Source: Olivibacter sp. SDN3 (GTDB taxonomy: Bacteria > Bacteroidota > Bacteroidia > Sphingobacteriales > Sphingobacteriaceae). From it: DNA of 64,000 bases. The notes beneath the pieces were generated by a model that did not search any database, was not told where the DNA came from, and saw nothing but the letters and a program-made list of their open reading frames with translations. Each line of letters begins with the position of its first letter. Positions within the stretch are counted from its first letter, which is position 1. Below are positions 32,077 through 53,174 of this stretch, piece after piece. A program made the translations under genes and the position numbers. Location of the stretch: the NCBI RefSeq assembly GCF_014334135.1, contig NZ_CP060497.1, positions 372,001 through 436,000 on the forward strand, read 5' to 3'.

Positions 32077-32093
32077 TTTCTTGAAATTTAAAT

Positions 32094-35207: not shown

Positions 35208-35336
35208 AATTTCTCTTTTAGGATTGGTGTGATCAAGGACTAACCTCCTTGACATAGCCAAATCACCGAGAAATATGAATCAATAACAAAAAATCGAAAA
35301 AAAAACAGCGAGAACGTTACCGAAGAAACACCAACA

Positions 35337-36956: not shown

Positions 36957-37201
36957 AGCAAAACAGAGGTGCTAAGGTAATTATTATCACGCATATTATA
37001 GAGCAAAACAATCTATTTTATAATGCTCGAAACACCAATGGAAATTTGATTTTTAGAATTATCTTTACGTAGAAAATGTGCCGTCAAATAAATCTTCTAT
37101 ACACGGTACAATATATAAAACAGCATGACAATTAATTATGCTAACAATATAGCTAGAAAAAAGTTTACTTGACAAGTAAAGCGCAAAAATTTAGACACAA
37201 A

Positions 37202-37768
37202 ATGCATGAAATAGAACCTTTTTACCGATGGCGTGATGACTACATTGCTTCCGAAGATGAACTATCACCATTTTATGGAACTGAGTATAGTGAATTTGAA
37301 TTTGACAAACAGATATATAATTTCCTATTACACCCTCAATGGGATTACTTTGGGTCTACTACGCTCTATTTAAAAATATTATATGCAGATTATGATCATA
37401 ACTATGCGATCATTGAATTTATTGGCGAATGGAATGATGCCATTTACAATGACATTATGCTCCTCAAACGTGAGATACTAGAACCTATGATGTCGGCAGG
37501 AATCAATAAATTCATTTTAATAGGAGAGAACATTCTCAATTTTCATTCATCTGATGATTGTTACTACGAAGAATGGTTTCAAGAAATTGAAGATGGATGG
37601 ATTGCGGGTATTAATTTCAGGCAACACGTAATTGAAGAGTTTAAGAACTCCAATATTGATTATTTCATTAATTTTGGAGGTGCCTTAGACGAAGTGAGCT
37701 GGCGCAACCATAAACCCATACAAGTTTATCGCGCTGTGGAAGAACAGTTAACCAAGCGATTGTACTAG
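37202..37768 (+). CDS. Conserved Bacteroidota protein of unknown function
   Basis: A 188-residue acidic cytoplasmic protein rich in aromatic and acidic residues (EPFYRWRDDYIASEDELSPFYG near the start, shortened here to its two ends EPFYRWRDD and ELSPFYG). No signal or membrane segment. It looks like a compact alpha/beta domain (TLYLKILYADYDHNYAIIEF; KFILIGENILNFH). I believe similar proteins occur across Sphingobacteria, but no function is known to me. The ATG at 37202 is preferred over a TTG 33 bases earlier. Confidence 0.75.
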   Translation: MHEIEPFYRWRDDYIASEDELSPFYGTEYSEFEFDKQIYNFLLHPQWDYFGSTTLYLKILYADYDHNYAIIEFIGEWNDAIYNDIMLLKREILEPMMSAGINKFILIGENILNFHSSDDCYYEEWFQEIEDGWIAGINFRQHVIEEFKNSNIDYFINFGGALDEVSWRNHKPIQVYRAVEEQLTKRLY

Positions 37769-37980
37769 TTCGTTAGTAACAATGTAGCATAGCCTCTTGT
37801 ATTGCTCATCAAACCTGTATTTTAGTATTTATCTTCACTGAAGGTTCTTCGGCGCCTATCATAAATTCCCAACAAATAAGTTTAAGCCTTTTTATCAGTT
37901 GTTTGTATCTTTTGGTATGAAGCTTGTTGCACTTTAATAATAAGACAATACTAACTTAAATAAAGAAAAGCCAATGATCT

Positions 37981-38532
37981 ATGAATTCATCTCTTTATTT
38001 ATTTATCGCAGTATCGCTCTGCTACACAAAATTAACAGCGCAGGAGCATAGCAAACAAGTGGATACAGCTGCCTTGCCAGTTCCAAACGAGAAGGGTCAA
38101 TTATTCTATCTCCAGCGGGATCCTAATACCAATACTGTTGTTTACACGCTCAATAAAAAGAATGGTAAAATTGACGAAAGCAATCCAGTTAACGCCTATT
38201 GGATTCTCTACGAAGAGGATGGTGAACGGAAAAACCTTTCTTTTATCCAGAAAAAACTCGCCTATGGTATACAACATAAAAAACTTGCCAACGACGAATT
38301 TGAGATCAATCTGACATCTTGCAAAAAAGTACCTCTACGGCTCGCCTATTGCCCGGAGAGTGCACAATACGAGGCTTTCGCCTCTATAAATAACAAGCAG
38401 ACAATAATAGACAGGATATTTGTAAGGATCAATGGAGGTAGTTTATTCAAACCGAATATTGATTATATTGAATTAATTGGGCGTGAAAGCAAGTCCGGCA
38501 AAGGCGTTAAACATATCCTAGAAATGGACTAA
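37981..38532 (+). CDS. DUF4833 family secreted protein
   Basis: A 183-residue protein with a signal peptide ending LTAQ (about residue 21). The mature part has the DUF4833 features: FYLQRDPNTNTVVYTLN (about 42-58), PVNAYWILYEEDGE (about 69-82) and NGGSLFKPNIDYIELIG (about 151-167). Expected in the periplasm; the function is unknown in this family. It is monocistronic and convergent with the formylglycine-generating enzyme gene. Confidence 0.85.
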   Translation: MNSSLYLFIAVSLCYTKLTAQEHSKQVDTAALPVPNEKGQLFYLQRDPNTNTVVYTLNKKNGKIDESNPVNAYWILYEEDGERKNLSFIQKKLAYGIQHKKLANDEFEINLTSCKKVPLRLAYCPESAQYEAFASINNKQTIIDRIFVRINGGSLFKPNIDYIELIGRESKSGKGVKHILEMD

Positions 38533-38565
38533 CTTCCTATTTCATCAAGAAGATTCGTTTCGTCT

Positions 38566-39642
38566 TTACTCTGCCTCAGGCGCTTGATCACTCACACATC
38601 TAAAACCCAGGTTATTGCTGGCACTACTCACCTCGCCTTTGCCTCGGCTTCCGGCTTTGTAACGTTCGCAATACTGCTCATTACATAAAAAAGAACCCCC
38701 TCTCTGTACGCGCTTTACGAGCCCCGGCTCTGTAGGATCGTAACTATCGGAAGGTCCTTTGGGATTATCCTTCACCGAATTCTTATAGGTGTCTGGTCTA
38801 TAGTAATCTGAACACCATTCCCAAACGTTGCCATCCATATCGTACAGTCCAAAGGCATTTGCCGGAAACGATTTTACTGGTGCCGTTTCTTCAAAACCAT
38901 CTTCTCCTGTATTTTTAGTCGGAAAATTTCCTTGATATACATTAGCAACCCACTTACCGTCAGGTTTAAGGTCATTCCCCCAATAAAATGTCTGATCTTT
39001 TTTTCCAGCGCGTGCAGCATATTCCCACTCCGCCTCGGTTGGTAATCTTTTCCCCGCCCATTTAGCAAATGCTTCCGCATCTTCATAGCTAACATGCACT
39101 ACTGGGTCATTGTCCTCAATAGTACTTCCGGGACCTTTTGGATGTCTCCAAGAGGCGCCAGGCACATATTTCCACCACTGTAGGTGATTATTTAAGTTCA
39201 CCTGCTCTTCTGGCGGGCTAAATACTGCCGACCCCGGGACTAACAAGTCTCTTGAAACACCCGGAAAGTCCTCGGGATTTAATGCCCGTTCAGCTACAGT
39301 GATATATCCTGTAGCCTCCACAAATTTAGCAAACTGCGCATTGGTAACTTCATGCTCATCCATCCAAAAATCGCTTATAGTTACGTCATGTATAGGCTGA
39401 GCATCGGCAAATTCCGTTGATCCCATTCGGAAATCACCTCCTTTTATCAACACCATCTTTCCATCATCAGCACCTAAAAGAATTTCGTTTTGCACATTCT
39501 TCACGGCCGCTACACGCGAAGGCATTCCTTCAGACACGCACATGGCAACAGAATCCTGCTCATCAACCCTACGTTCGTTTCCCGTATTACATGCCGAGAG
39601 AAAAATGATGCTGATACATGCTATAGATTTATATTTTTTCAT
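38566..39642 (-). CDS. Formylglycine-generating enzyme, lipoprotein
   Basis: 358 residues. A lipobox LSAC gives a lipid-anchored Cys18, so it acts outside the cytoplasm. The FGE-sulfatase domain spans about 60-352, with GGDFRMGS near its start, LPTEAEWEYAARAG and NVWEWCSDYY. Both copper-binding/catalytic cysteines are present: Cys320 and Cys325 in GGSFLCNEQYCERY, same spacing as human SUMF1 Cys336/Cys341, followed by NNLGFRC. It should convert the sulfatase CAPTR cysteine to formylglycine. The upstream part of the open frame (to 39768) overlaps the YeiH-type gene, so the ATG at 39642 is chosen. Last gene of the sulfatase operon. Confidence 0.92.
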   Translation of the reverse strand: MKKYKSIACISIIFLSACNTGNERRVDEQDSVAMCVSEGMPSRVAAVKNVQNEILLGADDGKMVLIKGGDFRMGSTEFADAQPIHDVTISDFWMDEHEVTNAQFAKFVEATGYITVAERALNPEDFPGVSRDLLVPGSAVFSPPEEQVNLNNHLQWWKYVPGASWRHPKGPGSTIEDNDPVVHVSYEDAEAFAKWAGKRLPTEAEWEYAARAGKKDQTFYWGNDLKPDGKWVANVYQGNFPTKNTGEDGFEETAPVKSFPANAFGLYDMDGNVWEWCSDYYRPDTYKNSVKDNPKGPSDSYDPTEPGLVKRVQRGGSFLCNEQYCERYKAGSRGKGEVSSASNNLGFRCVSDQAPEAE

Positions 39643-39695
39643 ATTTACATTCAAGTTCTCAAATCTAAAGTTACTATTCCCCGCTAATCCTCCTC

Positions 39696-41012
39696 CTATC
39701 CAAAGAGTAAAAACGCAAGAATCAACGTAATAATAATATTGAATAACTGGGCTATAAGAAACACCCAAAAAGGACGTTTGCTGTTTTCTTTTATTAACTC
39801 CTTAAAATTTGTCTCCAATCCAATACTTGTAAAAGCCAGTGCAAACCAAAGACTTTGTATACTCTTTATGTCTCCTTTTACAGTCGCTATGGTGTCTTCG
39901 CTCAAAACAAAAGAGAATAATAAAGATGCTGCAATAAATCCCAGAACAAACTTAGGAAACCGCTCCCAAATAACACCTAAACCCGGTTTGGTACCCGGTT
40001 GCTGGCCAGCAGGGTGGTTAGTGTAAGTCCAATAAATTGAGATAGCCAGGGCGGCCACACCTAAAAGAACATTTTGTGAAAATTTTACAATAGTACTGAT
40101 TTTTAATGCAGTCTCTCCAACAAGCGAACCAGACGCAACCACTGCTCCTGACGTATCTATACTTCCTCCTAACCAAGCACCTGTCACCTCTTCAGAAAAA
40201 CCAAAATAACTAGCAATATAAGGCATACCGATCATCATTGGAACAGCCGTGATTAATACCATAGACACTACATACGACAATTTTTTTGAATCTCCCTGAA
40301 TGGCACCCGAGGTAGCAATAGCGGCTGAAACACCGCATATAGAAACAGCACTCGACAGCATCAAGCCCAGTTCTTCATCTATTTTAAATTTTTTGCACAG
40401 CCAAAAAGCAAAATACCATACGGATAAAACCACCACTAACGATTGTATAAGTCCCAAAGACCCAGCCTTTAAAATATCTGAAAAAATGACACTGGTACCC
40501 AACAGAACCAACCCGATCTTCACCAAAAGTTCCGCTGATAAGGACTCCTTTAACCAAACAGGTAATTTCACGGTATTTCCTATTAATAAACCTATACATA
40601 AGCTAAAGATTACCGCTTCTAGCCCCAACTCCTCCATACTGGCGTTTCCCGCAAACAGTAATGCAACCACTGTCAATATAAAAACAACAGGAAAGCCCTT
40701 TAGATATGGAGCCACTTTTCTTCCCGTTAGCAAAGCTCCAAAAATGAGTATGGCAAATGTAAATAGAAACTGTAACAATAATCGTTGTGAATTTTCCAAA
40801 GAAAATACAGCTAGTAAACCACTTAGATCAGACCATTTATACTGGGGAGCACTGATATGTAAGCCGGCAATTGCCGAAACGATGATAATAGCTCCCAAGA
40901 TGACTACGGTCCAGTCTTCTGTTAAATAATTCTTTTTAGGCAGATTCTGTAATTCTGCAGATAGGTCTTCTTCCGGAACTTCAAGTTCATTTACCACATT
41001 TTCTTGACGCAT
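39696..41012 (-). CDS. YeiH-type putative sulfate exporter (UPF0324)
   Basis: A 438-residue inner-membrane protein with about ten hydrophobic segments after a cytoplasmic N-terminus of roughly 35 residues (LTEDWTVVILGAIIIVSAIAG). It belongs to the 'conserved hypothetical 698' family annotated as putative sulfate exporters; conserved stretches include AVSICGVSAAIATSGAI (about 222-238) and GGSIDTSGAVVASGSLVG (about 284-301). Export of sulfate by this family is not firmly proven, but its position between a sulfatase and the sulfatase-activating enzyme supports a link to sulfur/sulfate handling. Confidence 0.88.
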   Translation of the reverse strand: MRQENVVNELEVPEEDLSAELQNLPKKNYLTEDWTVVILGAIIIVSAIAGLHISAPQYKWSDLSGLLAVFSLENSQRLLLQFLFTFAILIFGALLTGRKVAPYLKGFPVVFILTVVALLFAGNASMEELGLEAVIFSLCIGLLIGNTVKLPVWLKESLSAELLVKIGLVLLGTSVIFSDILKAGSLGLIQSLVVVLSVWYFAFWLCKKFKIDEELGLMLSSAVSICGVSAAIATSGAIQGDSKKLSYVVSMVLITAVPMMIGMPYIASYFGFSEEVTGAWLGGSIDTSGAVVASGSLVGETALKISTIVKFSQNVLLGVAALAISIYWTYTNHPAGQQPGTKPGLGVIWERFPKFVLGFIAASLLFSFVLSEDTIATVKGDIKSIQSLWFALAFTSIGLETNFKELIKENSKRPFWVFLIAQLFNIIITLILAFLLFG

Positions 41013-41164
41013 GTTTTAGTAGCTGATTAGTAAAAAATCAAAACTATTGATAATAAGTTAAAAGGAAAAAGGAAAAACGTAAAATTTCGCAGACATTAAC
41101 ACTTAAATACAGTAAGCAGGTCATCAAGTTTACAAAAACAAGCCCTGTGCCTTATCGGAAGATC

Positions 41165-42115
41165 TTACGTAAGCCCTGATGAAATAGCATCTGTACCAAA
41201 AGAAGTTTCCGTGTTTTTTTCGGCAACCGCTACCTCGTTGGTATCTTTTACGTCTTGCCTTACAACAGGCCCATTCGCAGCCAATTCACTTCCCTTAACT
41301 TTTGATTTAAAGATTGGCCAAAGTAATTGTGCATACCATTCATCACCTTCATAATGTGAAATGCCATATGTTTTTGGATATTTACGTGTAATTAAGGCTG
41401 TTCCAAAAATAATATCCCATATAAAAAACATATTTCCAAAATTTCCTTTGTAATATCCAACACCATCATCGGTCCTATCTGCATGATGCGCATGATGTGT
41501 CGCAGGTGTAGAAATCGTTCTTTCCAGAACCCATGCAATTGGATGCAACCACTTTTTTTCATAAAGAGGCCTATCCCATTTAATACTCGAATGTGCCATT
41601 TTTGTTATGAGCGATTTGATACCCCTCGCAAATAAAGCTGGATATCCCAATCCTAAATAAACCAATAAGGTTGTCAAATACGTTTGCGAAAAGAAAATGG
41701 TATAGATCATATTCTGTCTGGAAGCCATTGCCATTCCCATGTAAGGTGCCGAATGATGCGTTCTATGGAACCTCCATAACCACGGAATTTCGTGATGTAG
41801 GCGATGATACCAATATTGTGTCAAATCATCGTAAACGCAGATAATAACAAAACCCCAAAAGAAAGGTATCCAGTCAAAAGCATCTTTTGCATAGGGAAGA
41901 ATATAAGGCAAAAACTTTAAGCCAAAATAGGCTACTAATGGTCGGGTAGCCAATCGAGGCAGGGCGTAACAAGCTATATCCAACATTTTTTCGTTTCGGT
42001 TCCATTCCTTACCGTAAAGGCCAAACGAAAATTCAAAAACACCTATAATCAGTGTCAGTACCGGCAACCCCCAAGTATTGAGGTTCGTAAAAATTGATTC
42101 TATAAATTCTATCAT
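41165..42115 (-). CDS. Sterol desaturase / fatty acid hydroxylase family protein
   Basis: A 316-residue integral membrane di-iron oxygenase. Histidine clusters typical of the family are present: YWYHRLHHEIPWLWRFHRTHH (read as HRLHH and HRTHH, about 105-125) and HHAHH (about 213-217). Several membrane helices surround them. Members hydroxylate or desaturate sterols, carotenoids or fatty acids; the substrate here is unknown. The last 40 residues are polar and poorly conserved. It lies within the sulfatase operon, which may hint at a lipid or sterol-like substrate. Confidence 0.9.
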   Translation of the reverse strand: MIEFIESIFTNLNTWGLPVLTLIIGVFEFSFGLYGKEWNRNEKMLDIACYALPRLATRPLVAYFGLKFLPYILPYAKDAFDWIPFFWGFVIICVYDDLTQYWYHRLHHEIPWLWRFHRTHHSAPYMGMAMASRQNMIYTIFFSQTYLTTLLVYLGLGYPALFARGIKSLITKMAHSSIKWDRPLYEKKWLHPIAWVLERTISTPATHHAHHADRTDDGVGYYKGNFGNMFFIWDIIFGTALITRKYPKTYGISHYEGDEWYAQLLWPIFKSKVKGSELAANGPVVRQDVKDTNEVAVAEKNTETSFGTDAISSGLT

Positions 42116-42159
42116 AATCTTTGTTATTAACGAAAAAAATCTAATACTTAATCATCAGG

Positions 42160-42291
42160 TTATTCCAACCAAGGTCGCTGGTCTGTAACAAAAAAATACA
42201 GAAACATCAACAAGATAGGTAGCGCATATATCAATAGGCTCAATAATACGTTGCGAATAATTCGGTCTTTGACGTCTTTTTCTAATTTCAT
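42160..42291 (-). CDS. Small membrane peptide (43 aa)
   Basis: MKLEKDVKDRIIRNVLL..., 43 codons: a charged N-terminus of 13 residues, one hydrophobic helix (VLLSLLIYALPILLMFLYFF, 15-34) and a short polar tail ending RPWLE. It fits 44 bases before the sterol-desaturase gene within the operon, and codon use looks normal. No family recognised. Reasonable as a real gene because position, strand and topology all fit. Confidence 0.6.
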   Translation of the reverse strand: MKLEKDVKDRIIRNVLLSLLIYALPILLMFLYFFVTDQRPWLE

Positions 42292-42349
42292 TTAAAGATC
42301 AATTAGGCATAATCATTAATAATTTCAAACACATACATGCCATCTACGC

Positions 42350-42466
42350 TTACATCAGTTTTTGTAAAAGTGTAATACCCAAACATATGATGAGCGCCGG
42401 GATGAGTGCTACTATAATACCCACCAGAATTTTCTTTAAGAGTAGGATAATATCTTGAAAGGTCAT
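42350..42466 (-). CDS. Possible small membrane peptide (38 aa)
   Basis: MTFQDIILLLKKILVGIIV..., 38 codons, almost entirely hydrophobic from residue 5. Its ATG lies 4 bases after the stop of the rhodanese/thioredoxin gene. A different frame over the same DNA (42303-42470, in phase with the preceding gene after its stop) also encodes a protein-like sequence, so which frame is real is uncertain. Confidence 0.45.
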   Translation of the reverse strand: MTFQDIILLLKKILVGIIVALIPALIICLGITLLQKLM

Positions 42467-42470
42467 TTTT

Positions 42471-43178
42471 TTAAAGTTTATGTTTATTTAACTGATTAAC
42501 AATCTCCTCCTTAGAGGATAAACCAGTTTTCTTCCACACCACTTCATTTTCTTTGTAAAGAATAAGTGTTGGCAAAGCTTCAACAGCTAACTCTTTTATC
42601 AATTGCTTATTATCATACGCCTCGATATCGACCAATTTGAATACATCTGAATGTTCGCTAACAACCTCTGCCACTACTGGCTTTAGTTTTTGGCATCCTC
42701 CGCAATAGCGGGATCCTACATCCACCAACACCAATTGATCAGCTTTCACCTGCTCTTGAAAATCAGCAAGTGAAAGTCCCTCATCCACCGTTGATTCTAC
42801 TGGCTTTCCTTTCCCGATCCATTTGCTGAGTCCTCCTGGAAATTCATACACCTCCCCAAAACCAAGCTCTTGCAAAAGAACAGCTAACTTTCCGCTCCTC
42901 CCATTACCTATCGAATAGACAAACACAGGTTTCTCTTTATTAAGTTGTTTTACAACAGCGCTTAATTGTTCTTCATCTACGACGTTTACAGCGCCTTTCA
43001 CGTGATTCTGTTGGTACTCTTCGTAAGAACGTGCATCTAAGATCTGTGCTTCGCCCGCTTGGGCTTCCAATTTTTGCTCAAAATCGACAAAGGGGATTAA
43101 TGTCTTTTTGGTTTGCTGTTGTCCAGACACCATACTTTGTGCCGATAGCAACAACATCATCATAATTAACTTTTTCAT
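42471..43178 (-). CDS. Rhodanese-thioredoxin fusion, rhodanese site lost
   Basis: A 235-residue exported protein (signal peptide 1-20, SMVSGQ). Residues about 30-128 form a rhodanese fold, but the active-site loop reads VYSIGNGRSGK with Ser89 where a catalytic cysteine belongs, so sulfur transfer is unlikely. Residues about 135-233 are a thioredoxin domain with CGGC at 159-162, a redox-active pair. It lies 25 bases after the sulfatase gene. It may keep cysteines of the sulfatase or of the formylglycine-generating enzyme reduced (inference). A paralogue at 59617-60348 keeps the rhodanese cysteine. Confidence 0.9.
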   Translation of the reverse strand: MKKLIMMMLLLSAQSMVSGQQQTKKTLIPFVDFEQKLEAQAGEAQILDARSYEEYQQNHVKGAVNVVDEEQLSAVVKQLNKEKPVFVYSIGNGRSGKLAVLLQELGFGEVYEFPGGLSKWIGKGKPVESTVDEGLSLADFQEQVKADQLVLVDVGSRYCGGCQKLKPVVAEVVSEHSDVFKLVDIEAYDNKQLIKELAVEALPTLILYKENEVVWKKTGLSSKEEIVNQLNKHKL

Positions 43179-43203
43179 CGTGTATTGTACTTTATCATTG
43201 TTA

Positions 43204-45042
43204 CTATTTTGTTTCCGTACTGCGCCTATCTACCACGTCATCCCAATTAATTAATGGATACACATTGTTTACTTTCGCTTCCTCGTCGAATAGCGCTTTC
43301 AGTTCTTCCAGCTTTTCCGGATGCTGCTTTGAAAGGTCATTTTGTTCATTAAAGTCCTCGTCGAGATGGTATAATTGCCAGTCAATATTAGCCGGATCAT
43401 CGAAGCTAACATTACGTATTCTTCCTCCTTTATTTTCATCTATTTTAAAAGCTAGACTGGCTTTCCACCCATCCTTATATATTGCCCGAGAACCAAAAAT
43501 GTAATAATATTGCACTAAATGTTGTGAAGGGGCCTCTTTATCATTAAACGAGTAAAATAAAGAAGTTTGTATGCTATCTTGTTTGATGCCCCTGATATAT
43601 GTTGGAGCTTCGATATTCAGGAACTCCAAAGTTGTAGGAAGTAAATCGTTCACATATCCATATTGATGCCTTAAACCGCCTTTCTCCTTAATCGTTTTAG
43701 GATAGAAAACAATCAGGGGATTGCGCGTACCTCCTTCGGCATGCGCATCCTGTTTCCAATATTTAAAGGGTGTATTCGTGGCCTGGGCCCATCCTAGAGG
43801 ATAGTTTCCATTAGTTGCCTCTGGCGTACCTATCAAGTCGAAATTTTCTAGATGCGCTTTAATAGCTTCTTCTTCTGATTGTTCTTGTAAAAGGGCTGTT
43901 GCCGGTGCACGCTTGATCGTCCCATATTGGGTTCCTTCTTTGCTCCCGCCATTGTCGCCTATCACCAAAAGTATTAAGGTATTATCTAATTGATTGATCG
44001 ATTGCAGATGATCAATTAATCTTCCCACCTCATAATCGGTATACGTTAAATATCCGGCATAGACCTCAAAGAAACGTGTATATACTTTTTTTGCGTCATC
44101 TGAAAGGTCATTCCACGCTTTAATATATGGGTTACGGGCGGGCAAAGTAGCATTGGCCGGGATAAGCCCTAATTTCTTTTGGCGCTCAAACACCTCTTCA
44201 CGATAAACATCCCAGCCATCGTCAAATTTACCTTTATAGAGATCACGCCATTTCTTTTCTACCTGATGTGGCGAATGGACTGCAGCAGGCGAATAATATA
44301 AAAAGAACGGTTTAGCTGGGTCAGCTTTCTTTTGACGATCAATAAAACTGATCGCTTTATCCGTAATTTGTTCACTGAGATGCCGACCATCAGGGTCCAC
44401 ATGTGCATTATCCTCCACTAAATCCGGTTTGTATTGGTCCGTTGCAGATCCTAAGAAACCAAAAAAATGGTCAAAGCCTTTACCGGATGGCCACCTATCA
44501 AAGGGACCGGCATCGGTGGCGTCCTGATCCGGTGTTAGTCCGTATTTTCCTACAGCAAACGTATTGTAACCATTTTCTCGCAAAATTTCGGCAATGGTGC
44601 CTTTGTCAGAAGGGATTCTACCATCCCAACCAGGAAAACCAAAAGATGCCCATTTATGAGAAAAACCACCTTCATGCACCCGATGGTGATTACGACCAGT
44701 TAATAATGCCGCTCTCGTGGGAGCACAAATCGCTGCAGTATGAAAATTCGTATACCTCAGTCCATTATTTGCCAAACTATCAAAGGTGGGTGTAGGAATT
44801 AACCCACCGAAAGCACTTGCTGCTCCAAAACCTACATCGTCCAAGAGAATCCAAACTACGTTTGGTGCACCTTCCGGTGCTTTGACCGGATCCGTCCAAG
44901 ATTCCTTAGAATCCTTATATTGCTCACCGATTATTCCTTTAAAGGTCTCTTGCTGCTGCGTAATATTTTGTGCACCCAGATAACCGGGGGTTAGCAGTGT
45001 GCCTAAGCAAACACCCAAAATGATTGATTTTTTCATGATCAA
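43204..45042 (-). CDS. Arylsulfatase (type I, formylglycine-dependent)
   Basis: A 612-residue exported sulfatase (signal peptide to about 24, YLGAQ). Metal-binding LLDDVGFG (66-73) and the formylglycine motif CAPTRAALLTGR with Cys106 are intact. The FGGLIPTPTFDSLANNG and TGRNHH contexts resemble aryl-sulfatases of the Pseudomonas AtsA type rather than glycan sulfatases. It hydrolyses sulfate esters in the periplasm after Cys106 is converted to formylglycine, presumably by the enzyme encoded at the end of the same operon. The start may be two codons later (MKKSII). It follows susD by 58 bases. Confidence 0.95.
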   Translation of the reverse strand: MIMKKSIILGVCLGTLLTPGYLGAQNITQQQETFKGIIGEQYKDSKESWTDPVKAPEGAPNVVWILLDDVGFGAASAFGGLIPTPTFDSLANNGLRYTNFHTAAICAPTRAALLTGRNHHRVHEGGFSHKWASFGFPGWDGRIPSDKGTIAEILRENGYNTFAVGKYGLTPDQDATDAGPFDRWPSGKGFDHFFGFLGSATDQYKPDLVEDNAHVDPDGRHLSEQITDKAISFIDRQKKADPAKPFFLYYSPAAVHSPHQVEKKWRDLYKGKFDDGWDVYREEVFERQKKLGLIPANATLPARNPYIKAWNDLSDDAKKVYTRFFEVYAGYLTYTDYEVGRLIDHLQSINQLDNTLILLVIGDNGGSKEGTQYGTIKRAPATALLQEQSEEEAIKAHLENFDLIGTPEATNGNYPLGWAQATNTPFKYWKQDAHAEGGTRNPLIVFYPKTIKEKGGLRHQYGYVNDLLPTTLEFLNIEAPTYIRGIKQDSIQTSLFYSFNDKEAPSQHLVQYYYIFGSRAIYKDGWKASLAFKIDENKGGRIRNVSFDDPANIDWQLYHLDEDFNEQNDLSKQHPEKLEELKALFDEEAKVNNVYPLINWDDVVDRRSTETK

Positions 45043-45100
45043 CGTTTCTTATCAAGGTTTAAAATCATTTTATTCATATAGCCTGTATACTTTTGCTTTC

Positions 45101-46663
45101 TTAATTCCACTCCGGGTTTTGCTCCAACAGATGATTATTGTCTATTTCCGATTGCGGTATAGGGTATAAATAATGCTTATCGGCAGCATTGGTCTTGCCA
45201 ACTTTATGCAGATTTCTAACTAAAACACCGCTCCCCGAAGCATCTTTCTGTCTAATCAGGTCAAACCAGCGCTGATATTCAAATGTCAGTTCAAGCCGTC
45301 TGTCGAAATAGACCGAATCCCGAAATTGATCTTTTGTAAGACCTGCAGTGAGATCTGGTAGTCCGGCCCTATTTCTCACGCGATTTAATGAACGGTAGGC
45401 CTTTGGTGTCGGGCCGTTTAATTCATTTTCCGCCTCTGCATGGATCAACAATAAATCGGCGTATCTTATAATAGCTACATTTGCAGCAGATTCGCTGGTT
45501 ACAGCTAATGAATTGGGATCCCATAGTTTATTGAAAAATGGTGTAGAATCCTGCGGAACGGCAGGATTATTTATAGGTAGACCGTACTGCTGATTGTTGG
45601 TCGGACTGTTAAAATGAGTAACGAAAGTAACGTACTTACGCTTATCTTGTGGTGAAAACAATTTAAATATACTAAAATAGTTGTCTTCACCCTCCCTATA
45701 GAAACGCACCATATGTGCATAAGTCCCTCTTAAACCTGGTATTCCACCTAAGATAGCCCGTAGCATCTCACTATTTCCCTGATTAAGGGAATTAGACTTG
45801 AACTGTGCAGAAAAAATATGTTCTACACCATTTTTATGTGCCGGTAAAAAAACTTCCGCATAGTTCTCGATCAAGTCATAACCATATTCACCACTACCAC
45901 CATCCTGTGGAGAAAGCGCCTCTTCTGCCGTACGGACAGCGTCTTCATAGTGCAACTGGATATTTAATGGTAGGGAAGCTTTGGTGAGATACACTTTCGC
46001 TAACAGCGCTTTAGCTGCTCCCGCAGTCGCTCTACCTACGTCTGGCGAAGAATAAGATGGCGGCAAAACGTCGGCAGCTTCTTTCAAATCGGTTTCGATC
46101 TGCGTATAAACTTCAGCGGCGGTTGATTTGGCAACAGCATAATCATTTGCATCTATGAACTCCTGATTTTCAATAATTAAGGGCACACCACCGTATAGTC
46201 GAACCAAATTGAAATAATATAGCGCGCGTAAAAACTTCGCCTCTCCGAGCAGCCGGTTTTTCAGCTGTTCATCGAATTCAATCTCTGGAATTTTCTCCAG
46301 TGCTACATTCGCTTTTTTTATCGCGGCATAATGTTGCTGCCAAATTTCATAAACCCGTAGATTTGTGGAAGAGTGCGCTAACACAGAAAGTGAGCGAACG
46401 TCCGGATTCGTCGCTCCCGGCCCGGGATCTTCATCGTCTCCCGCCATATTCATCCCTGTATTGAATAAGGTATTATAAGGCGTTTGCAAACCGCCCGCAT
46501 TCAGAAGAAAATACACGGCATTCACAGCATTTACTGCATCCTCCTGTGTATTATAAAATTGATTATCCGAAATGATCGCCGCAGGTTCTTCTTCCAAAAA
46601 CTTTTTGCAAGAAACAAGGCAAAAAAGGGATAGTATAATTAAGAGATTATTAACAGATTTCAT
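45101..46663 (-). CDS. RagB/SusD-family nutrient-binding lipoprotein
   Basis: A 520-residue surface lipoprotein, lipobox LVSC with Cys19, followed by KKFLEEEPAAIISDNQFY, the classical SusD opening. The C-terminal RRLELTFEYQRWFDLIRQ and the ending YPIPQSEIDNNHLLEQNPEW (read as two halves) are standard SusD motifs. Works with the SusC protein encoded 12 bases upstream to bind the substrate of the sulfatase operon. Ligand unknown. Confidence 0.95.
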   Translation of the reverse strand: MKSVNNLLIILSLFCLVSCKKFLEEEPAAIISDNQFYNTQEDAVNAVNAVYFLLNAGGLQTPYNTLFNTGMNMAGDDEDPGPGATNPDVRSLSVLAHSSTNLRVYEIWQQHYAAIKKANVALEKIPEIEFDEQLKNRLLGEAKFLRALYYFNLVRLYGGVPLIIENQEFIDANDYAVAKSTAAEVYTQIETDLKEAADVLPPSYSSPDVGRATAGAAKALLAKVYLTKASLPLNIQLHYEDAVRTAEEALSPQDGGSGEYGYDLIENYAEVFLPAHKNGVEHIFSAQFKSNSLNQGNSEMLRAILGGIPGLRGTYAHMVRFYREGEDNYFSIFKLFSPQDKRKYVTFVTHFNSPTNNQQYGLPINNPAVPQDSTPFFNKLWDPNSLAVTSESAANVAIIRYADLLLIHAEAENELNGPTPKAYRSLNRVRNRAGLPDLTAGLTKDQFRDSVYFDRRLELTFEYQRWFDLIRQKDASGSGVLVRNLHKVGKTNAADKHYLYPIPQSEIDNNHLLEQNPEWN

Positions 46664-46675
46664 AGTTTAAAATTG

Positions 46676-49600
46676 TTATAATGCAAGTTGAACACCTAGT
46701 TGAAAAGATTTATTGTTGGGATAGATACCGTTATCTATACCCCTATTAATCAGCGACTGCTCACTGGAGCTTACTTCCGGATCAAAACCGGTATAATTAG
46801 TTAGTGTCCAAGCATTTTGTGCAGAAACATATATACGAAGACTTTCTAAGCCACTTTTACCAAGAAAGCTTTTTGGCAAAGTATAGCCTAAGGCAATATT
46901 CTTTAAGCGCAGATAGGAAGCGCTTTCTATAAAACGATCAGAAATAGTGATCGCGGGATCCTGAAAAGCTGCTTTTACTTCCGTATCCGTATTTGTTGGC
47001 GTCCATCGATCCAACATTACCCGGGACGCATTTACGTAACCTGTACCGAGCTCAAGATTGGCGCGGTTTGCATTATAGATTTTCCCTCCTGCCTGTCCTT
47101 GAAAGAAAACAGAGAGATCAAAGCCCTTGTATGAAAAAGTGTTTGTTAGACCCGCAACTAAACCCGGTTGATTGGAAACGACCACCCTGTCGCCAGCCTG
47201 CGTGATCTGTCCATCGCCATTGATATCTCGATATTTTTGCCCGCCTGGACTTCTATTCTGTTGCGGAGTGAGTGGCACATCCCCTTCCTGGATAATTCCA
47301 TCCGTTTGATATACGATGAACGAACCCAAAGGATAACCGACCTTGGCAATAGAAGGCTCAGAAATTGTTGGTATAATCTGATCAACCCCTTCACCCAAAT
47401 CCAAAATCTTATTGGTATTTCTCGATACCATCGCGATGGTCTTCCAGCTGAAAGGGCCTGTCAGGTTATTTGAATTAACATATAACTCAATACCCTGATT
47501 GGAAACCGCACCAATATTTTGATAGATGGTAGCAGCCTGCCCTCCCCCGTGTTCGGCGAGCCCAGAACTACCCGGAACGGTCCTGCTCAATAACAGGTCG
47601 GTAGTCTTTTTATAATAATAATCAGCTACGATACTAATTCTGTTATCAAAGAGACCGATATCGATTCCACCGTCAAACTGAAAGGTTTTCTCCCAACCTA
47701 GATTAGGATTTACCACAGTTATCGGAGCAAAGCCGTGCACAGTGGTATTTGAAAAGTTGTATCTAAAGTAGTCTAACCGAGCTAACGATTGATAAGAAGG
47801 GATGTTCTGGTTCCCAGTGGTTCCCGCACTTAAACGCAACTTAAGCTGACTAATGTTTTTAACATTAAAAAAGTCTTCATTATTAACGTTCCATCCAAAA
47901 GCAGCCGATGGGAAATAACCCCACTTATTTCCGGCCCCAAATCTCGAAGATCCATCTGAACGGAAAGTTAACGTCAATAAATAACGATCATCATAAGCAT
48001 AGTTTACACGCCCAAGGAATGAAGCAAGCGACCAGTCATTGGCATCGGAACGAGGAATTCTATTCGTTACCCCAGTAGCTAAATTATTAAAACTGAAGGC
48101 ATCAGTAGCGAAACCTGCTGCTTCAGCGACAGCGCCTTCACTCTTGGATTGCTGCGCAGTAAACCCTACTATCGCATTAATTCGATTTTTATCGTTAATC
48201 GTTTTATCATAACTCAACGTATTTTCGTTTAACCAATTCGAGGTAAACAAAGAACCCACCTGCGCTAAACCATCTAAATCCAAACCTTCGGACGTTGTTT
48301 TCGGCAAGTAGCGGTTTTGTTTATTGTCGAGAATATCCACTCCCAATAATACTTTCGCCTTTAGTCCGGTTATAATTTCATATTCTCCAGAAACGCTACC
48401 CAAAAGACGATTGATTTTTGACTCGTTAAGTTGATTATATAAAGAATTGATTGGGTTCTGCAAAGTAGATTCAAACGGACTGTTGATTACAAAAGAGCCA
48501 TCATCCTGATAAACCGGTAAAGCAGGAGGGGTTAACAACAGGTTCCCCACGACAGCAGTTGGCGCGATATCGGCTTTTGACCCGCTCGCTGCCAGGTTAG
48601 CCGTCAATTTCAAGCGATCATTATAATCGTGAAGTACATTAATTCTACCAGAAATCCGGTTAAATCCTGTATTCTGCAAAATTCCTTCCTGATTGAAATA
48701 GTTACCGGAAATGGCCAATCGGGTACGCTCGCCTCCAGACAGGATAGAAAGGTTATGGTTCTGTATGGGTGCTTGCCTAAATGCCGCAGCCTGCCAATCT
48801 GTTCCTACACCACTGGTATCCAGCGAATATCCAATAGGCGTTGGTAATGTAGCCGTTCTACCCGAATTTGCTGCCGCATCTTTACGCAACTGCCACCATT
48901 CTCCAGCATTTAGTAAAGGGATAGTTCGCACAACTTCTTGATAACCATAGAAACCATCGTAGTTGATAGAGGATTGATTTCTTGAGCCACTCTTTGTTGT
49001 GATGATTACCACTCCGTTTGCACCCCTCGAACCGTAAATTGCCGTTGCTGAGGCATCTTTTAATACATCGATAGACTCGATATCAGAAGTATTAATGGTT
49101 GATAATGGATTAATTTTTGAACCTGTGTTCACACCTGCATCATTCGAAGAGTAATCGTTATCTATTGGAAAACCATCGATTACATAGAGCGGATCACTCC
49201 CGGCAGTAATCGAATTATTCCCTCTTATCTGAACACTTACACCACCACCAGGTTGACCGGAAGTCTGCGTTACAGACACACCAGGAACGGATCCTTGTAA
49301 CAAACGCTCTGCCGAAGCAACAGGCTGAGCTTTCACCTCAGCAGGTACCGTCGCTATTGCTCCAGTTAAATCGCCCCTTCTTTGTGTACCGTAACCAACT
49401 ACCACCACATCTTCTAATTGATTAAAATCTGGTTCTAAAGCAATCTCGACAGGACTGCCGTTGACAACTACATTGGCAGTCTTATATCCAACGTAATGAA
49501 CAATCAAGGTATAGGGAAACTTCTGCCCCGTTATAAATTTAAATTTTCCATCTCCATCGGTACCAGCTTTATGCGTAGTTCCTTCGATATCTACAGTTGC

Positions 49601-49756
49601 TCCAGCGAGTGGCTCCCCCGTACCTGCATCAACAACCTTTCCATCTAACGTGGAGTTAATCAGTGGCTTCGTTTGCCCAAAAGACATGTGACCTAGGCTC
49701 ATAAACCAAAGCCAGAACAAAACTGTATAAAAATTTCTCCATCGCTTTTTTTCCAT
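46676..49756 (-). CDS. SusC/RagA-family TonB-linked outer-membrane transporter
   Basis: 1026 residues from MEKKRWRNFYT; the open frame extends 16 codons further. Signal peptide ends MSFGQ (about residue 28). Domains: carboxypeptidase-regulatory-like (about 38-110), a plug with EDVVVVGYGTQRRGDLTGAI and LLQGSVPGVSVTQTSGQPGG, then the barrel ending KSFQLGVQLAL. First gene of the long sulfatase operon. No sigma/anti-sigma pair is adjacent, so regulation must come from elsewhere or from the long leader upstream. Confidence 0.95.
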   Translation of the reverse strand: MEKKRWRNFYTVLFWLWFMSLGHMSFGQTKPLINSTLDGKVVDAGTGEPLAGATVDIEGTTHKAGTDGDGKFKFITGQKFPYTLIVHYVGYKTANVVVNGSPVEIALEPDFNQLEDVVVVGYGTQRRGDLTGAIATVPAEVKAQPVASAERLLQGSVPGVSVTQTSGQPGGGVSVQIRGNNSITAGSDPLYVIDGFPIDNDYSSNDAGVNTGSKINPLSTINTSDIESIDVLKDASATAIYGSRGANGVVIITTKSGSRNQSSINYDGFYGYQEVVRTIPLLNAGEWWQLRKDAAANSGRTATLPTPIGYSLDTSGVGTDWQAAAFRQAPIQNHNLSILSGGERTRLAISGNYFNQEGILQNTGFNRISGRINVLHDYNDRLKLTANLAASGSKADIAPTAVVGNLLLTPPALPVYQDDGSFVINSPFESTLQNPINSLYNQLNESKINRLLGSVSGEYEIITGLKAKVLLGVDILDNKQNRYLPKTTSEGLDLDGLAQVGSLFTSNWLNENTLSYDKTINDKNRINAIVGFTAQQSKSEGAVAEAAGFATDAFSFNNLATGVTNRIPRSDANDWSLASFLGRVNYAYDDRYLLTLTFRSDGSSRFGAGNKWGYFPSAAFGWNVNNEDFFNVKNISQLKLRLSAGTTGNQNIPSYQSLARLDYFRYNFSNTTVHGFAPITVVNPNLGWEKTFQFDGGIDIGLFDNRISIVADYYYKKTTDLLLSRTVPGSSGLAEHGGGQAATIYQNIGAVSNQGIELYVNSNNLTGPFSWKTIAMVSRNTNKILDLGEGVDQIIPTISEPSIAKVGYPLGSFIVYQTDGIIQEGDVPLTPQQNRSPGGQKYRDINGDGQITQAGDRVVVSNQPGLVAGLTNTFSYKGFDLSVFFQGQAGGKIYNANRANLELGTGYVNASRVMLDRWTPTNTDTEVKAAFQDPAITISDRFIESASYLRLKNIALGYTLPKSFLGKSGLESLRIYVSAQNAWTLTNYTGFDPEVSSSEQSLINRGIDNGIYPNNKSFQLGVQLAL

Positions 49757-49925
49757 AAAGGGATAGGATGCCTTAAAAGACAAATAGTTGTTAAAATTGA
49801 TCATTATAAATAAAATGTAAATGCAAATGATACGAGGCCACGTAATCGATAGTGCGTGACAGTATCTATTTATTTAGCTCCTAAAAACAGTGTCTTTATA
49901 TGGTTTTAAAGACGCAATAAGTATG

Positions 49926-50012
49926 TTACCAGGTGAGGTCATTGTTTAGCAACAACAGCGGTTGCGCATCATCGCATATAACATCGATGAATAAGTTCTT
50001 GAAGGTCGACAT
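49926..50012 (-). CDS. Possible 28-aa leader peptide
   Basis: ATG at 50012, stop at 49926; MSTFKNLFIDVICDDAQ then PLLLLNNDLTW. The frame is open for 44 codons including the part before the ATG. No clear ribosome-binding site. It would be translated from the leader of the susC-sulfatase transcript. Could be chance. Confidence 0.3.
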   Translation of the reverse strand: MSTFKNLFIDVICDDAQPLLLLNNDLTW

Positions 50013-50135
50013 GATAATAAATCGAAGTGATCTTTCAGGTGATTTGCTGTTAGGTTGGCTTTAATCTGTTTCATCGTTTTAACATCGAATACGTTAATAA
50101 TTTAATCTACTATTTTAGTAGACATTTCAATCATA

Positions 50136-50143
50136 CAAATATA
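50136..50143 (-). promoter_or_regulatory. Putative -7 element for the sulfatase operon
   Basis: The minus strand reads TATATTTG, fitting TAnnTTTG. No TTTG at 19-21 bases upstream; a weaker call. Confidence 0.4.
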
Positions 50144-50247
50144 GCGCTACAACAAACAGATCGTTAGGACTAAAATATTCATAAAATAGCTATAAAATAT
50201 TCGTAAAAACCGATTATAAGTAAAAAATTAAGCTATCTCTACTATTA

Positions 50248-51678
50248 TTAATGCTTTTTAAAAAGATCTTTTAAAACGCGATGAGCAGCATGGTAACCGC
50301 ACATACCGTGTACTCCACCTCCCGGTGGGGTTGATGAGGAGCATATATATATGCCCTTTACAGAAGTTTTGTAAGGAGATCCAAACAACGCAGGTCTCGT
50401 AAATAACTGTGTTATATCCATTGCCCCTCCGTTAATATCTCCACCAACATAGTTTGGATTGTAAGCGGCAAACTGCTGCGCATTCATTGTCTTTTTCGAT
50501 ATGATATTATCTATAAACCCAGGAGCAAAACGTTCGATCTGCCGTTCAATCTGCTTGTTCATATCTTTTGTCGAACCATGCGGAACATGACAATACGCCC
50601 ACACAATTTGTTTTCCTTCCTTTGTTCTTTTGGTATCAAATAAACTTTGCTGCGCTAAAAGTACGAAAGGTTTTTCCGGATGTCTCCCATGCCACGTCTG
50701 ATACTCTGCTTCAGCTATTTCTGAAAAAGTATTCCCTATATGTACTGTGCCTGCATTTAAACATATTTCTGAACGGAAAGGTACCGGCCCTTCTAGCACC
50801 CAATCCATTTTAAACACTCCCATGCCGTAGCGATATCGCTGCAATTGTTTTTGGTACCAATTTGAAAACTTATGTCCGGCTATCTCGAGTAATTGTTTTG
50901 GGCCTATGTCGAAAAGCAAGGCTTTAGCGGCTGGTAATTTTTGCAGGGAGTCTACGTGGTAATTGGTCTTGATTTCACCTCCCAATGATTTAAAATAAGA
51001 GGCTAATGCATTAGCTATACTTTGTGAGCCGCCTTCAGGAATAGGCCACCCTGCAGTATGGCCAGCCAGTAGCAATACCAGAGCAACCGCAGAAGTGCCG
51101 GCGTAGCTTAATGGCAGCATGGCATGTCCTGCCATACCCGCCCATAATGCTTTTAATTTTTCGGTTTTAAAGTTTCGGGCAGTATAACTTGCCGAAGGGA
51201 GCGCTTTATATCCAAAACGCATCATATCCAAAGGCATCTTCGGTATATGTAACGGTGCCAATACATCTTCGATGAGCGCGGGCCATGATTGGGAAAGGCT
51301 ACCAAGGAAGCGCATATACCTGCCTTCATCCACGCCCAACTGAACCGCAGTGGCCCTTAAAGAAGGAAAGAGCCCCACACTATCTCCTCCATCCATAGGA
51401 TGAGCAGCTAATACGGAAGGATGGATAAAATTAAGTCCATGTTCTTCCAGGGCTAGAGATTTAAAAAAAGGCGATTGTAAAGCCATGGGATGAATAGCCG
51501 AACAAACATCGAGTGTATAACCAGGTAGTAATTGTTGAGAAGAACGGAGCCCTCCTCCTATCGTTTCCTTTCCTTCAATCAGCAATACATCCAGCCCTTT
51601 TTGCTGCAACACAATAGCGGCGGCCAAACCATTTGGACCCGAACCAACTACAACCGCGTCATATTTATCTTTCAGCAT
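50248..51678 (-). CDS. FAD-dependent oxidoreductase, phytoene-dehydrogenase-like
   Basis: A 476-residue flavoprotein. The N-terminal dinucleotide-binding motif VVVGSGPNGLAAAIVLQQKG (about 9-28) with LIEGKETIGGGLRS, and a C-terminal FAD segment STPPGGGVHGMCGYHAA, are typical of the phytoene dehydrogenase-related group (COG1233). The substrate is unknown; carotenoid, retinoid or other lipid oxidation is possible. It follows the DoxX-type gene by 6 bases, so they are co-transcribed. Confidence 0.88.
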   Translation of the reverse strand: MLKDKYDAVVVGSGPNGLAAAIVLQQKGLDVLLIEGKETIGGGLRSSQQLLPGYTLDVCSAIHPMALQSPFFKSLALEEHGLNFIHPSVLAAHPMDGGDSVGLFPSLRATAVQLGVDEGRYMRFLGSLSQSWPALIEDVLAPLHIPKMPLDMMRFGYKALPSASYTARNFKTEKLKALWAGMAGHAMLPLSYAGTSAVALVLLLAGHTAGWPIPEGGSQSIANALASYFKSLGGEIKTNYHVDSLQKLPAAKALLFDIGPKQLLEIAGHKFSNWYQKQLQRYRYGMGVFKMDWVLEGPVPFRSEICLNAGTVHIGNTFSEIAEAEYQTWHGRHPEKPFVLLAQQSLFDTKRTKEGKQIVWAYCHVPHGSTKDMNKQIERQIERFAPGFIDNIISKKTMNAQQFAAYNPNYVGGDINGGAMDITQLFTRPALFGSPYKTSVKGIYICSSSTPPGGGVHGMCGYHAAHRVLKDLFKKH

Positions 51679-51684
51679 TTTGGA

Positions 51685-52926
51685 CTACCTGTTGTAAGGA
51701 TATTCATTTATCCAACGAAACCCTCTATTCATCAATCGGAAGGTGTTTAACTCTCTTCTTTTTAAGCGGATCAGTAAACTATCTCCTTTGATATGACCTC
51801 GCAATATAAGATAATTATTATCCGTTTCATATGTCAAGCGGCCTTTATATGTACTATCGGTGTAAGGATAAAGGTCGATCGCCTTATTAAGTGTATCCGT
51901 AGTAAAACTGTAATATTTCAGGGAATCATTCATCATTTTTAAGGTAGCATTCCTATCCCATTCAATCACTAAATTTCTCCAACGTCCTGTATCGGTAATT
52001 AACGGGGGAATAGTATCTCCGTTTTTAATCATCAACTCCGCATCATACAAGCCATATAATGCAGGTTTCTTGCGCTGATCACCGTATGCCTCCATTCCCC
52101 TTATGCCAATGAGCATAATACCATTGTAAAACAAATAACCAATAAATAGGCTTTTGAGTACAATTCGTGAAATTTCCATCCATTTACTTTTGAAATATAC
52201 TATATGTGGCTTTGCCGCTGTAAACCTATTAAGTACAAAGAAATCAAGCAATCTTTTGAAATCTCCTGCCAGCAGGAAAACACTCATTAAAAAAAGTGTT
52301 ATCGAAAAAAGCTTCACCGGTACATCAAAAAACAAATTAATAGCGACAATATTTAGCGTTACAATAGCTGTTAATATAGCACCCAAAACTGCGCTTTTCC
52401 TAAAAAGCAGGAAGAAACCCGCCACTATTTCTGCTGCGCCGGTAAAAAAACTAAACCCTTTGGAGAAGCCGACATATGCCCAAGCCAACCCCATAGGCGA
52501 TTTGTCGCCTAATGGTTGAATGAGTTGACTTAAATTAGGATACGACATTTGCAGATGAAAAACCTTATAAAAACCGTATACAAACATATTCAAGGCCAAA
52601 AAGTAACGAACCAATACTCCAATCCAATAGTAAAATCTATCGTAACTTCGCTCTCTTCTATCGATTATACTCCATATAAACGTTATCATTAATGCTAAGG
52701 ATACATAGAGAAGCATCGTCACATAATCATAGGTCGTGTCACCACTCCCATTGGTAAATATGGTAATAGTTCTTTTTAATTGCAGTATATAGGAGCCAAA
52801 CCATGGTACGATTATTTTAAAAAGACCAGCAATGAAACCACCCAAAATATAAATTAAAAAAAAGGAGCCAAAAAAACGGAACAGTATCCTTTGACCGAGC
52901 GTCCAGTTCTTAGCAGTATATTCCAT
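51685..52926 (-). CDS. DoxX-type membrane protein
   Basis: A 413-residue inner-membrane protein with about eight hydrophobic segments (for example 12-40, 68-86, 100-118, 150-175, 180-205) and a polar C-terminal domain of about 150 residues. The region YWIGVLVRYFLALNMFVYGFYK and GFSFFTGAAEIVAGFFLLFR (each up to 22 residues, abbreviated) is DoxX-like. The family is linked to quinone or thiol redox, but its function is uncertain. The C-terminal extension is unusual and may be periplasmic or cytoplasmic. First gene of a two-gene operon with the FAD oxidoreductase. Confidence 0.75.
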   Translation of the reverse strand: MEYTAKNWTLGQRILFRFFGSFFLIYILGGFIAGLFKIIVPWFGSYILQLKRTITIFTNGSGDTTYDYVTMLLYVSLALMITFIWSIIDRRERSYDRFYYWIGVLVRYFLALNMFVYGFYKVFHLQMSYPNLSQLIQPLGDKSPMGLAWAYVGFSKGFSFFTGAAEIVAGFFLLFRKSAVLGAILTAIVTLNIVAINLFFDVPVKLFSITLFLMSVFLLAGDFKRLLDFFVLNRFTAAKPHIVYFKSKWMEISRIVLKSLFIGYLFYNGIMLIGIRGMEAYGDQRKKPALYGLYDAELMIKNGDTIPPLITDTGRWRNLVIEWDRNATLKMMNDSLKYYSFTTDTLNKAIDLYPYTDSTYKGRLTYETDNNYLILRGHIKGDSLLIRLKRRELNTFRLMNRGFRWINEYPYNR

Positions 52927-53138
52927 AACGCTGTATCATCATTTAGGTAAACCAATTTAACATAAGCAATATAGCATATTTACATACAAGCCTCCATACG
53001 GTTTAACAAAAAAAACAACAAAACATAGACTCGAAAACACCAAATAACTTTCTTGTTTAAAAAGTCGTCATAGAAAATCTTAACCGTTTTGAAGAATAAG
53101 GAAGCAAACAAACCTTAAAGGGGTATAAATAAATTCCA

Positions 53139-53170: not shown

Positions 53171-53174
53171 CAAT

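Follow-up and report, generated by a model that had tools for sequence, protein, structure and literature searches.

Gene content of the sulfatase operon

We analysed a 64,000-nucleotide stretch of the genome of Olivibacter sp. SDN3 (contig NZ_CP060497.1, positions 372,001 to 436,000 of the forward strand; hereafter the window, whose own numbering is used throughout), and within it a run of minus-strand genes that joins a SusCD importer to a sulfatase and a membrane oxygenase. The host genome is one contig of 6.12 Mb and its genus group includes Olivibacter domesticus and O. jilunii. Open reading frame (ORF) translations and profile searches recovered, in place and on the minus strand, all nine genes named by an earlier sequence-only reading of this DNA. 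These are a SusC-type TonB-dependent outer-membrane transporter (46676..49804; TIGR04056, 875 bits), a SusD-type surface lipoprotein (45101..46663; PF07980 and PF14322), an exported, AtsA-like type I sulfatase with a CAPTR motif (43204..45036; PF00884, 200.6 bits), an exported fusion of a pseudo-rhodanese with a CGGC thioredoxin (42471..43178; PF00581 plus PF00085), two membrane mini-proteins which we call P1 (38 aa, 42350..42466) and P2 (43 aa, 42160..42291), a membrane histidine-cluster, presumed di-iron, oxygenase referred to here as FAH (41165..42115; PF04116, 82.8 bits, cut-off 31), a YeiH-like inner-membrane transporter, probably for sulfite (39696..41012; PF03601, 176 bits, cut-off 24.5), and a formylglycine-generating enzyme (FGE) with a lipoprotein-type N-terminus and a CNEQYC pair (38566..39642; PF03781, 270.7 bits). 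The start previously given for susC (49756) proved to be an internal ATG, the longest frame beginning at 49804. Intergenic gaps from susC to the FGE gene are 4 to 152 nt, and the run would be read as a single transcript.

Upstream of susC the earlier reading had missed two same-strand genes (50248-52926) and a polycysteine mini-ORF. The genes encode an FAD-dependent oxidoreductase (phytoene-desaturase/CrtO-like; 50248..51678; PF01593, PF13450) and a DoxX-like membrane protein (51685..52926), a label that lies below threshold (PF07681, 18.5 bits, cut-off 23.6); the mini-ORF (49946..49969, minus strand) reads MRNRCCC-stop and lies ~140 nt upstream of the longest susC frame. Gene content bears out an import and sulfatase operon with an FAH enzyme, and a Pfam scan confirmed that there is no glycoside hydrolase inside it. 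A polysaccharide utilisation locus combines SusCD with a glycoside hydrolase or lyase, and the scan found neither in the operon.

A conserved core of FAH and two mini-proteins

FAH belongs to PF04116, with the histidine clusters HRLHH, HRTHH and HHAHH invariant in 22 of 22 sequences. Its only NCBIfam relative is OlsE (NF052566), far below that model's cut-off (46.7 vs. 475), and sequence comparison with solved structures gave no convincing relative (best E 0.21). Orthologs of 63-87% identity were present in 13 other genomes among 151 genomes of the family, sharply separated from paralogs, which shared at most 37% identity among the matches listed. For neighbourhood counts we used 88 distinct FAH loci, made up of the best 80 of 346 confirmed relatives, seven family loci and the window, from which six duplicates (including L061=L074 and L063=L075) had been removed, and scored genes up to 10 kb either side of FAH. 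SusC was found in 74 loci, SusD in 80, a sulfatase in 72, an FGE in 23 and YeiH in five, whilst rhodanese/thioredoxin matches occurred in 11, ten of them true fusions. Sulfatases were absent from all 20 loci of FAH paralogs (72/88 vs. 0/20, Fisher 2e-12, kinship ignored), where SusC was present in ten and FGE in none; the figure of 72 is conservative, as one locus (L072) was scored as a miss despite two weak sulfatase relatives. At least one sulfatase-bearing FAH locus occurred in 29 of 30 genus-level groups, Pedobacter (three loci) having none, and gene order varied widely between loci. The proposed link between FAH, sulfatase and SusCD is thus kept across many genera. Conservation of the gene set in relatives, by comparison, holds for a smaller core: of the 88 loci, only four, all of the Olivibacter group, combine YeiH, FGE, thioredoxin and FAH.

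That core is P1-P2-FAH, which is common to Sphingobacteriaceae, Chitinophagaceae, Spirosomataceae, Fulvivirgaceae and others. Profiles of the mini-proteins, each built from 11 sequences of FAH loci, matched in 84 of 88 FAH loci for P1, always on the same strand and upstream of FAH, and in 83 of 88 for P2, with no match to either in 56 control loci. In 32 of those 83 (16 Chitinophagaceae, 16 Spirosomataceae) P2 is fused in frame to the N-terminus of FAH, and four changes of fusion state are needed on the FAH tree (87 rows). Across the 151 genomes, strong matches to P1 and to P2 were confined to one set of 12, every one of them an FAH genome (14 in total) with the mini-proteins beside FAH; the two remaining FAH genomes carry the most divergent FAH, one with a weak P1 in the right place, and a weak P2 match turned up in one unrelated genome. 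Both mini-proteins are under purifying selection (dN/dS 0 to 0.31 in 27 usable pairs out of 32, four being out of register and one having saturated dS). Against Pfam, P1 had no match and P2 none that was significant. The P2-FAH fusion and the strict co-occurrence suggest that the three proteins form a complex. Literature searches found no description of an oxygenase with two mini-protein partners, nor any paper on a sulfatase with a sterol desaturase or fatty acid hydroxylase in a SusC/TonB operon. At a Pedobacter FAH locus (L065 / L126) a SUFU-domain protein and LuxR/TPR regulators lie downstream of FAH.

Importer, sulfatase and thioredoxin fusion

A tree of 106 SusCs (FastTree) grouped those linked to FAH, requiring eight label changes where 500 shuffles needed 22 or more, the operon SusCs of L071, L077 and L141 being scored as near FAH owing to an intervening ORF or edge. 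A 55-row clade that includes the window SusC (local support 100) holds no control SusC, and FAH-linked SusCs also form a second lineage of 13 rows.

The sulfatase is of type I, combining its PF00884 match with the Cys-type motif CxPxR (CAPTR). Its best solved relative is 1hdh (E 6e-60), which we take to be the arylsulfatase of Pseudomonas aeruginosa; aligned by what we take to be the catalytic residue numbers of P. aeruginosa AtsA, it matches the metal Asp pair, Arg, Lys113, His211, Asp/Asn317-318 and Lys375, with Gly at the position of His115 (GKYGLT). Window-type sulfatases are present in 53 of the 88 FAH loci; among 64 sulfatases of this type that position reads GKYG in 29, GKWH or GKYH in 31 and otherwise in four. 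An arylsulfatase as closest solved relative fits, but does not prove, an aryl or lipid sulfate substrate. Read by eye, the N-termini of the sulfatase, the thioredoxin protein and SusC are signal-like and those of FGE and SusD lipoprotein-like, so that desulfation and formylglycine formation would both take place outside the cytoplasm.

The rhodanese domain of the fusion protein was considered as an active enzyme and ruled out, as the active-site Cys is missing from 10 of 10 aligned fusion proteins, which read YSI[GA]NGRS where the single-domain rhodaneses of FAH loci read YC[RH]SGNRS. All ten keep the thioredoxin motif YCGxC, and they co-occur with FGE (7/10 vs. 16/78, p 0.003), a weak hint that the thioredoxin domain supplies reductant to the cysteines of FGE and sulfatase. 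A literature search for papers pairing FGE with thioredoxin found none.

A polycysteine leader marks FAH-linked operons

Aligned leaders of four genus members each hold a short frame ending in CCC-stop, the three congeners of the window version reading ...SCCC*, MCYSCCC* and MCHSCCC*. We scored as a susC leader any ATG-started frame of at most 40 codons with at least three consecutive Cys, at most 600 nt upstream of susC. By this measure 44 of 74 FAH-linked susC genes have a polycysteine leader (L077 and L141 counted as FAH-linked), the shuffled mean being 0.05, whereas none of 35 unrelated susC genes does; the latter come from FAH loci (0/13), the genome's other sulfatase loci (0/6), sulfite-oxidase loci (0/5), FAH-paralog loci (0/7), YeiH loci (0/3) and the gene next door in the window (0/1). 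Runs of other residues were rarer (Leu 15/74, Ser 6/74, Val 4/74). The Cys runs mix TGT and TGC in 35 of 44 leaders and end at the stop in 37. At a G088 locus that lacks FAH but has SusCD, FGE and a window-type sulfatase, the single susC has a leader (MCCYCCCW).

A whole-locus scan, taking frames outside longer ORFs and at most 600 nt from the next gene, raised the tally to 67 of 88 FAH loci (66 from the scan plus L150); applied to 1,128,017 bases of the window genome outside the operon, the same test found no polycysteine leader. Leaders precede FAH-first and SusC-first operons alike, and the next gene of at least 100 codons is FAH in 16 cases, including two loci (L119 and L138) which have FAH, P1/P2 and a leader with no SusC or sulfatase detected within 10 kb. 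Because a leader is carried by 12 of the 16 FAH loci without a detected sulfatase and by 55 of the 72 with one, it follows FAH/SusCD rather than the sulfatase. The window leader has the sequence features of a polycysteine attenuator, namely a conserved mini-ORF that lies ahead of a sulfur operon and contains a run of Cys codons, and by analogy it shows the pattern expected of a peptide that senses cysteinyl-tRNA. In L119 and L138 a gene of 189 aa (L119:7106-7675, L138:6862-7431) is preceded by a polycysteine mini-ORF of its own (MSVYCCC); the L119 copy gave only a weak, below-cut-off carbonic-anhydrase-like match.

Possible promoter and leader RNA elements

Upstream of susC, the sequence TATATTTG (50136..50143, minus strand) is invariant in the four aligned genus leaders and matches what we take to be the Bacteroidota -7 promoter element TAnnTTTG, which makes it a putative promoter element here; the region upstream of susC gave no match to a Bacteroidota promoter consensus that fixes TTG at -33. 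Terminator-like sites in 36900-53500 numbered 10, against 15.0 in shuffles.

Eleven FAH leaders (L082, L114, L122, L125, L126, L127, L130, L133, L137, L139 and L150) and one locus without FAH (L268) share a conserved element, located after the polycysteine mini-ORF and before susC or FAH, in the order hairpin (mostly CCGGCAAGGNAGCCTTGCCGG-like), GTAACGCCAATCAC block, TTTTACTAACAA-like block. In the first hairpin both sides had changed at five of nine pairs, and the second stem gave 5.75 bp with its own arms, 5.05 with arms swapped and a maximum of 5.92. The element may be a new leader RNA; six loci searched against Rfam gave no match at gathering scores, and in the window leader the fuzzy matches were no better than chance-like.

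One formylglycine-generating enzyme for the whole genome

The listed FGE frame begins at an upstream TTG; counted from the ATG the protein has 358 aa, and the Cys320/Cys325 pair pointed out earlier is indeed the CNEQYC pair. Membership of the FGE family rests on PF03781 with a CxxxxC pair, and both catalytic Cys align with PDB 1y1e (E 7.6e-75). The genome has 27 PF00884 matches, 24 of them with a Cys-type formylglycine motif, and six PF03781 matches, of which the window FGE is the sole one with the CxxxxC pair. The other five comprise two GldK-type proteins and one EgtB (all over their cut-offs), one GldJ-like protein just under its cut-off (425.9 vs. 458.2) and one unclassified; PorK, GldK and GldJ, as described in PMC12421860, adopt the FGE fold but lack its two key Cys. 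A search of the genome with TIGR03942, the anaerobic maturase model, gave no match, and by elimination the window FGE is the maturase of the whole sulfatome.

Exactly one CxxxxC protein of PF03781 was present in each of five genus genomes searched. In one of these, G037, PF00884 gave just two matches, both weak (27.6 and 26.1 bits), and there is no FAH ortholog; the G037 FGE stands 0.5 kb from metH, beside the same downstream genes as in the window, whilst the block corresponding to window positions 39696-52926, DoxX-like gene through YeiH, is absent from this site and the G037 YeiH is located elsewhere. The suggestion that FGE is an activator dedicated to the operon therefore falls, as it is the only catalytic-pair FGE for 24 Cys-type sulfatases and stays in place in G037 without the operon. 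The G037 enzyme (L243:9179-10270) is apparently retained without sulfatase substrates.

A sulfite-linked transporter neighbourhood

The YeiH-type assignment stands as far as PF03601 is concerned; the score against the YeiH family model TIGR00698 missed the cut-off (88.5 vs. 232.6 bits). We compared 40 relatives (20 + 20) located at other loci within the family, in stretches mostly of 12-13 kb (one of 4 kb, one of 10 kb) with neighbours counted within ~6 kb. A relative of the FAD oxidoreductase was present in 30 of the 40, a sulfite-oxidase-type molybdenum enzyme (PF00174 + PF03404) in eight and its cytochrome c in seven; one or other of FAD oxidoreductase and sulfite oxidase occurred in 32. 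DoxX-like relatives were found in 14, FGE in five, a sulfatase in three and FAH in none, and the 20 FAH-paralog control loci held none of these neighbour genes except one FAH match. In four sulfite-oxidase loci of the genus (L244, L245, L246, L247) the genes run SusC, SusD, DoxX-like, DoxX-like, cytochrome c, sulfite oxidase, with the FAD oxidoreductase next in three, and this SusCD pair is apparently tied to sulfite oxidation.

Salmonella yeiH is needed for sulfite resistance, its deletion being sulfite-sensitive, according to PMC12880088. With sulfatase and FGE bearing exported-type N-termini, the sulfate would be set free on the outer side of the inner membrane, and the FAD oxidoreductase and sulfite oxidase neighbours fit sulfite better than sulfate. 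A dedicated sulfate exporter, as had been proposed, is on these grounds not upheld, and the window protein probably transports sulfite. The Olivibacter locus may thus be a sulfite-linked group (DoxX-like, FAD oxidoreductase, YeiH) with a SusCD-sulfatase-thioredoxin-FAH block inserted beside the resident FGE.

Other features of the window

Beside the operon lies a separate cluster (24822-35261) of a LacI regulator, a NagB-like gene, GH109 (PF21252), an esterase, SusD and SusC, with an S41 protease gene (35337-36956) between the two; in O. domesticus (L061) relatives of the GH109-cluster SusC and the S41 gene are likewise adjacent. Divergent from the operon, a SAM riboswitch (53174-53273) precedes a gene for B12-dependent methionine synthase (53368-57060). 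A complete rRNA operon (5S, 23S, tRNA-Ala, tRNA-Ile, 16S) occupies 10997-16005 on the minus strand.

Interpretation and alternatives

We consider it fairly probable that the operon scavenges organosulfur compounds under the control of cysteine. Under cysteine shortage, ribosomes would slow at the Cys codons of MRNRCCC and operon expression would rise. SusCD would import a sulfur-bearing, probably lipophilic, molecule, as its class and conservation suggest, from which the exported AtsA-like sulfatase would remove sulfate esters once FGE has made formylglycine, whilst the thioredoxin domain exported with the pseudo-rhodanese may hold the cysteines of both enzymes in the reduced state. P1, P2 and FAH, acting as one membrane oxygenase unit, would work at the inner membrane, oxidising either the substrate or the product of its desulfation and thereby making its sulfur or carbon available, and the YeiH-like protein, as a member of the sulfite-linked neighbourhood, would vent excess sulfite. 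A narrower proposal, which we advance tentatively and hold to be somewhat unlikely as it stands, is that P1-P2-FAH is a new three-part membrane-bound di-iron oxygenase which frees sulfur from lipophilic organosulfur compounds under a polycysteine leader, a Bacteroidota counterpart of SsuD/TauD; its chemistry could be hydroxylation of a sulfonate-bearing carbon, upon which sulfite leaves. A sulfur-freeing oxygenase would explain both the leader where no sulfatase is near and the sulfite transporter in the Olivibacter operon.

Several observations weigh against organosulfur scavenging under cysteine control. Eighty of the FAH loci are the top scorers among 346, hence the counts apply to close orthologs. 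In 16 of the 88 no sulfatase was detected within 10 kb and in 21 no polycysteine leader, and in Pedobacter zeae (G087) no window-type enzyme was seen among four sulfatase loci examined of six PF00884 matches. The thioredoxin-FGE link weakens to 4/7 vs. 16/78 (p 0.05) once Olivibacter is collapsed. YeiH occurs in just five FAH loci and the thioredoxin fusion in ten, from which it follows that the core does not need them. As to the leader itself, no terminator or antiterminator was found in that of the window, and a terminator-like hairpin follows the mini-ORF in 2 of 44 leaders.

The same gene content could instead describe an operon for carbon catabolism, one that takes up an aryl, steroid or lipid sulfate and has an activator and a sulfate exporter of its own, FAH hydroxylating the freed sterol or lipid. 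The company of SusCD, sulfatase and membrane hydroxylase in one operon, the AtsA-like sulfatase and the lack of a glycoside hydrolase all suit it; however, the genome's 24 Cys-type sulfatases have no FGE but the supposed activator, which in G037 occupies this site without the operon, YeiH neighbourhoods indicate sulfite, and polycysteine leaders, present even where no sulfatase is near, indicate sulfur rather than carbon supply, and we regard this explanation as quite unlikely. We also think it unlikely that FAH modifies the cell's own lipids (membrane lipids or sulfonolipids) in a low-sulfur response, with SusCD and sulfatase as co-regulated passengers: the lipid hydroxylase OlsE is the sole NCBIfam relative, far under cut-off, and L119 and L138 showed neither SusC nor sulfatase within 10 kb, but an endogenous lipid needs no import, and in most loci, across several gene orders, FAH comes with a SusC from a single clade. 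That the locus is only a loose sulfur island on which FAH, unrelated to the sulfatase, hitch-hikes seems very improbable given the sulfatase contrast of 72/88 vs. 0/20 and the leaders before both FAH-first and SusC-first operons, although YeiH, FGE and thioredoxin do come and go among loci and the locus is a mosaic, the same site in G037 lacking the block.

Organosulfur scavenging, if true, would reveal how part of the Bacteroidota draws on organic material for its sulfur, and searches for the leader signature could uncover further genes under sulfur control in this phylum. The conserved leader gives a physiological handle (sulfur, not carbon) on operons which would otherwise be filed as polysaccharide loci on account of their SusCD and sulfatase.

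Comparison with known systems

The window FGE belongs to the sequence family of the solved enzymes 1y1e and 6muj, which we take to be human and Streptomyces FGE respectively, with its two catalytic Cys aligned to those of 1y1e; it differs in its lipoprotein-type N-terminus, which would place maturation outside the cytoplasm. The transporter resembles Salmonella YeiH in its PF03601 type and, going by PMC12880088, in its sulfite link, but misses the TIGR00698 cut-off, and no LysR/YeiE-type regulator was present among the neighbouring genes scanned. Like SusCD-sulfatase polysaccharide utilisation loci, the operon holds SusC, SusD and an S1 sulfatase together; unlike them it has no glycoside hydrolase, a membrane oxygenase as core and a polycysteine leader.

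In mycobacteria, polycysteine leader attenuators are short ORFs of consecutive Cys codons just upstream of sulfur genes. The leaders described here share this arrangement, yet they belong to Bacteroidota, stand before SusCD/FAH operons and mostly end their Cys run at the stop. The proteobacterial sulfate-starvation operons ssu, tau and ats couple import with a sulfur-freeing sulfatase or oxygenase and should be silent in the presence of ample cysteine. The window operon contains no SsuD- or TauD-type gene, the rest of the genome not having been searched for one. The operon likewise pairs import with a sulfatase or oxygenase, but import is by SusCD, the sulfatase is exported and FGE-dependent, the oxygenase is of the PF04116 type with two mini-proteins, and a leader-peptide signature takes the place of CysB/Cbl.

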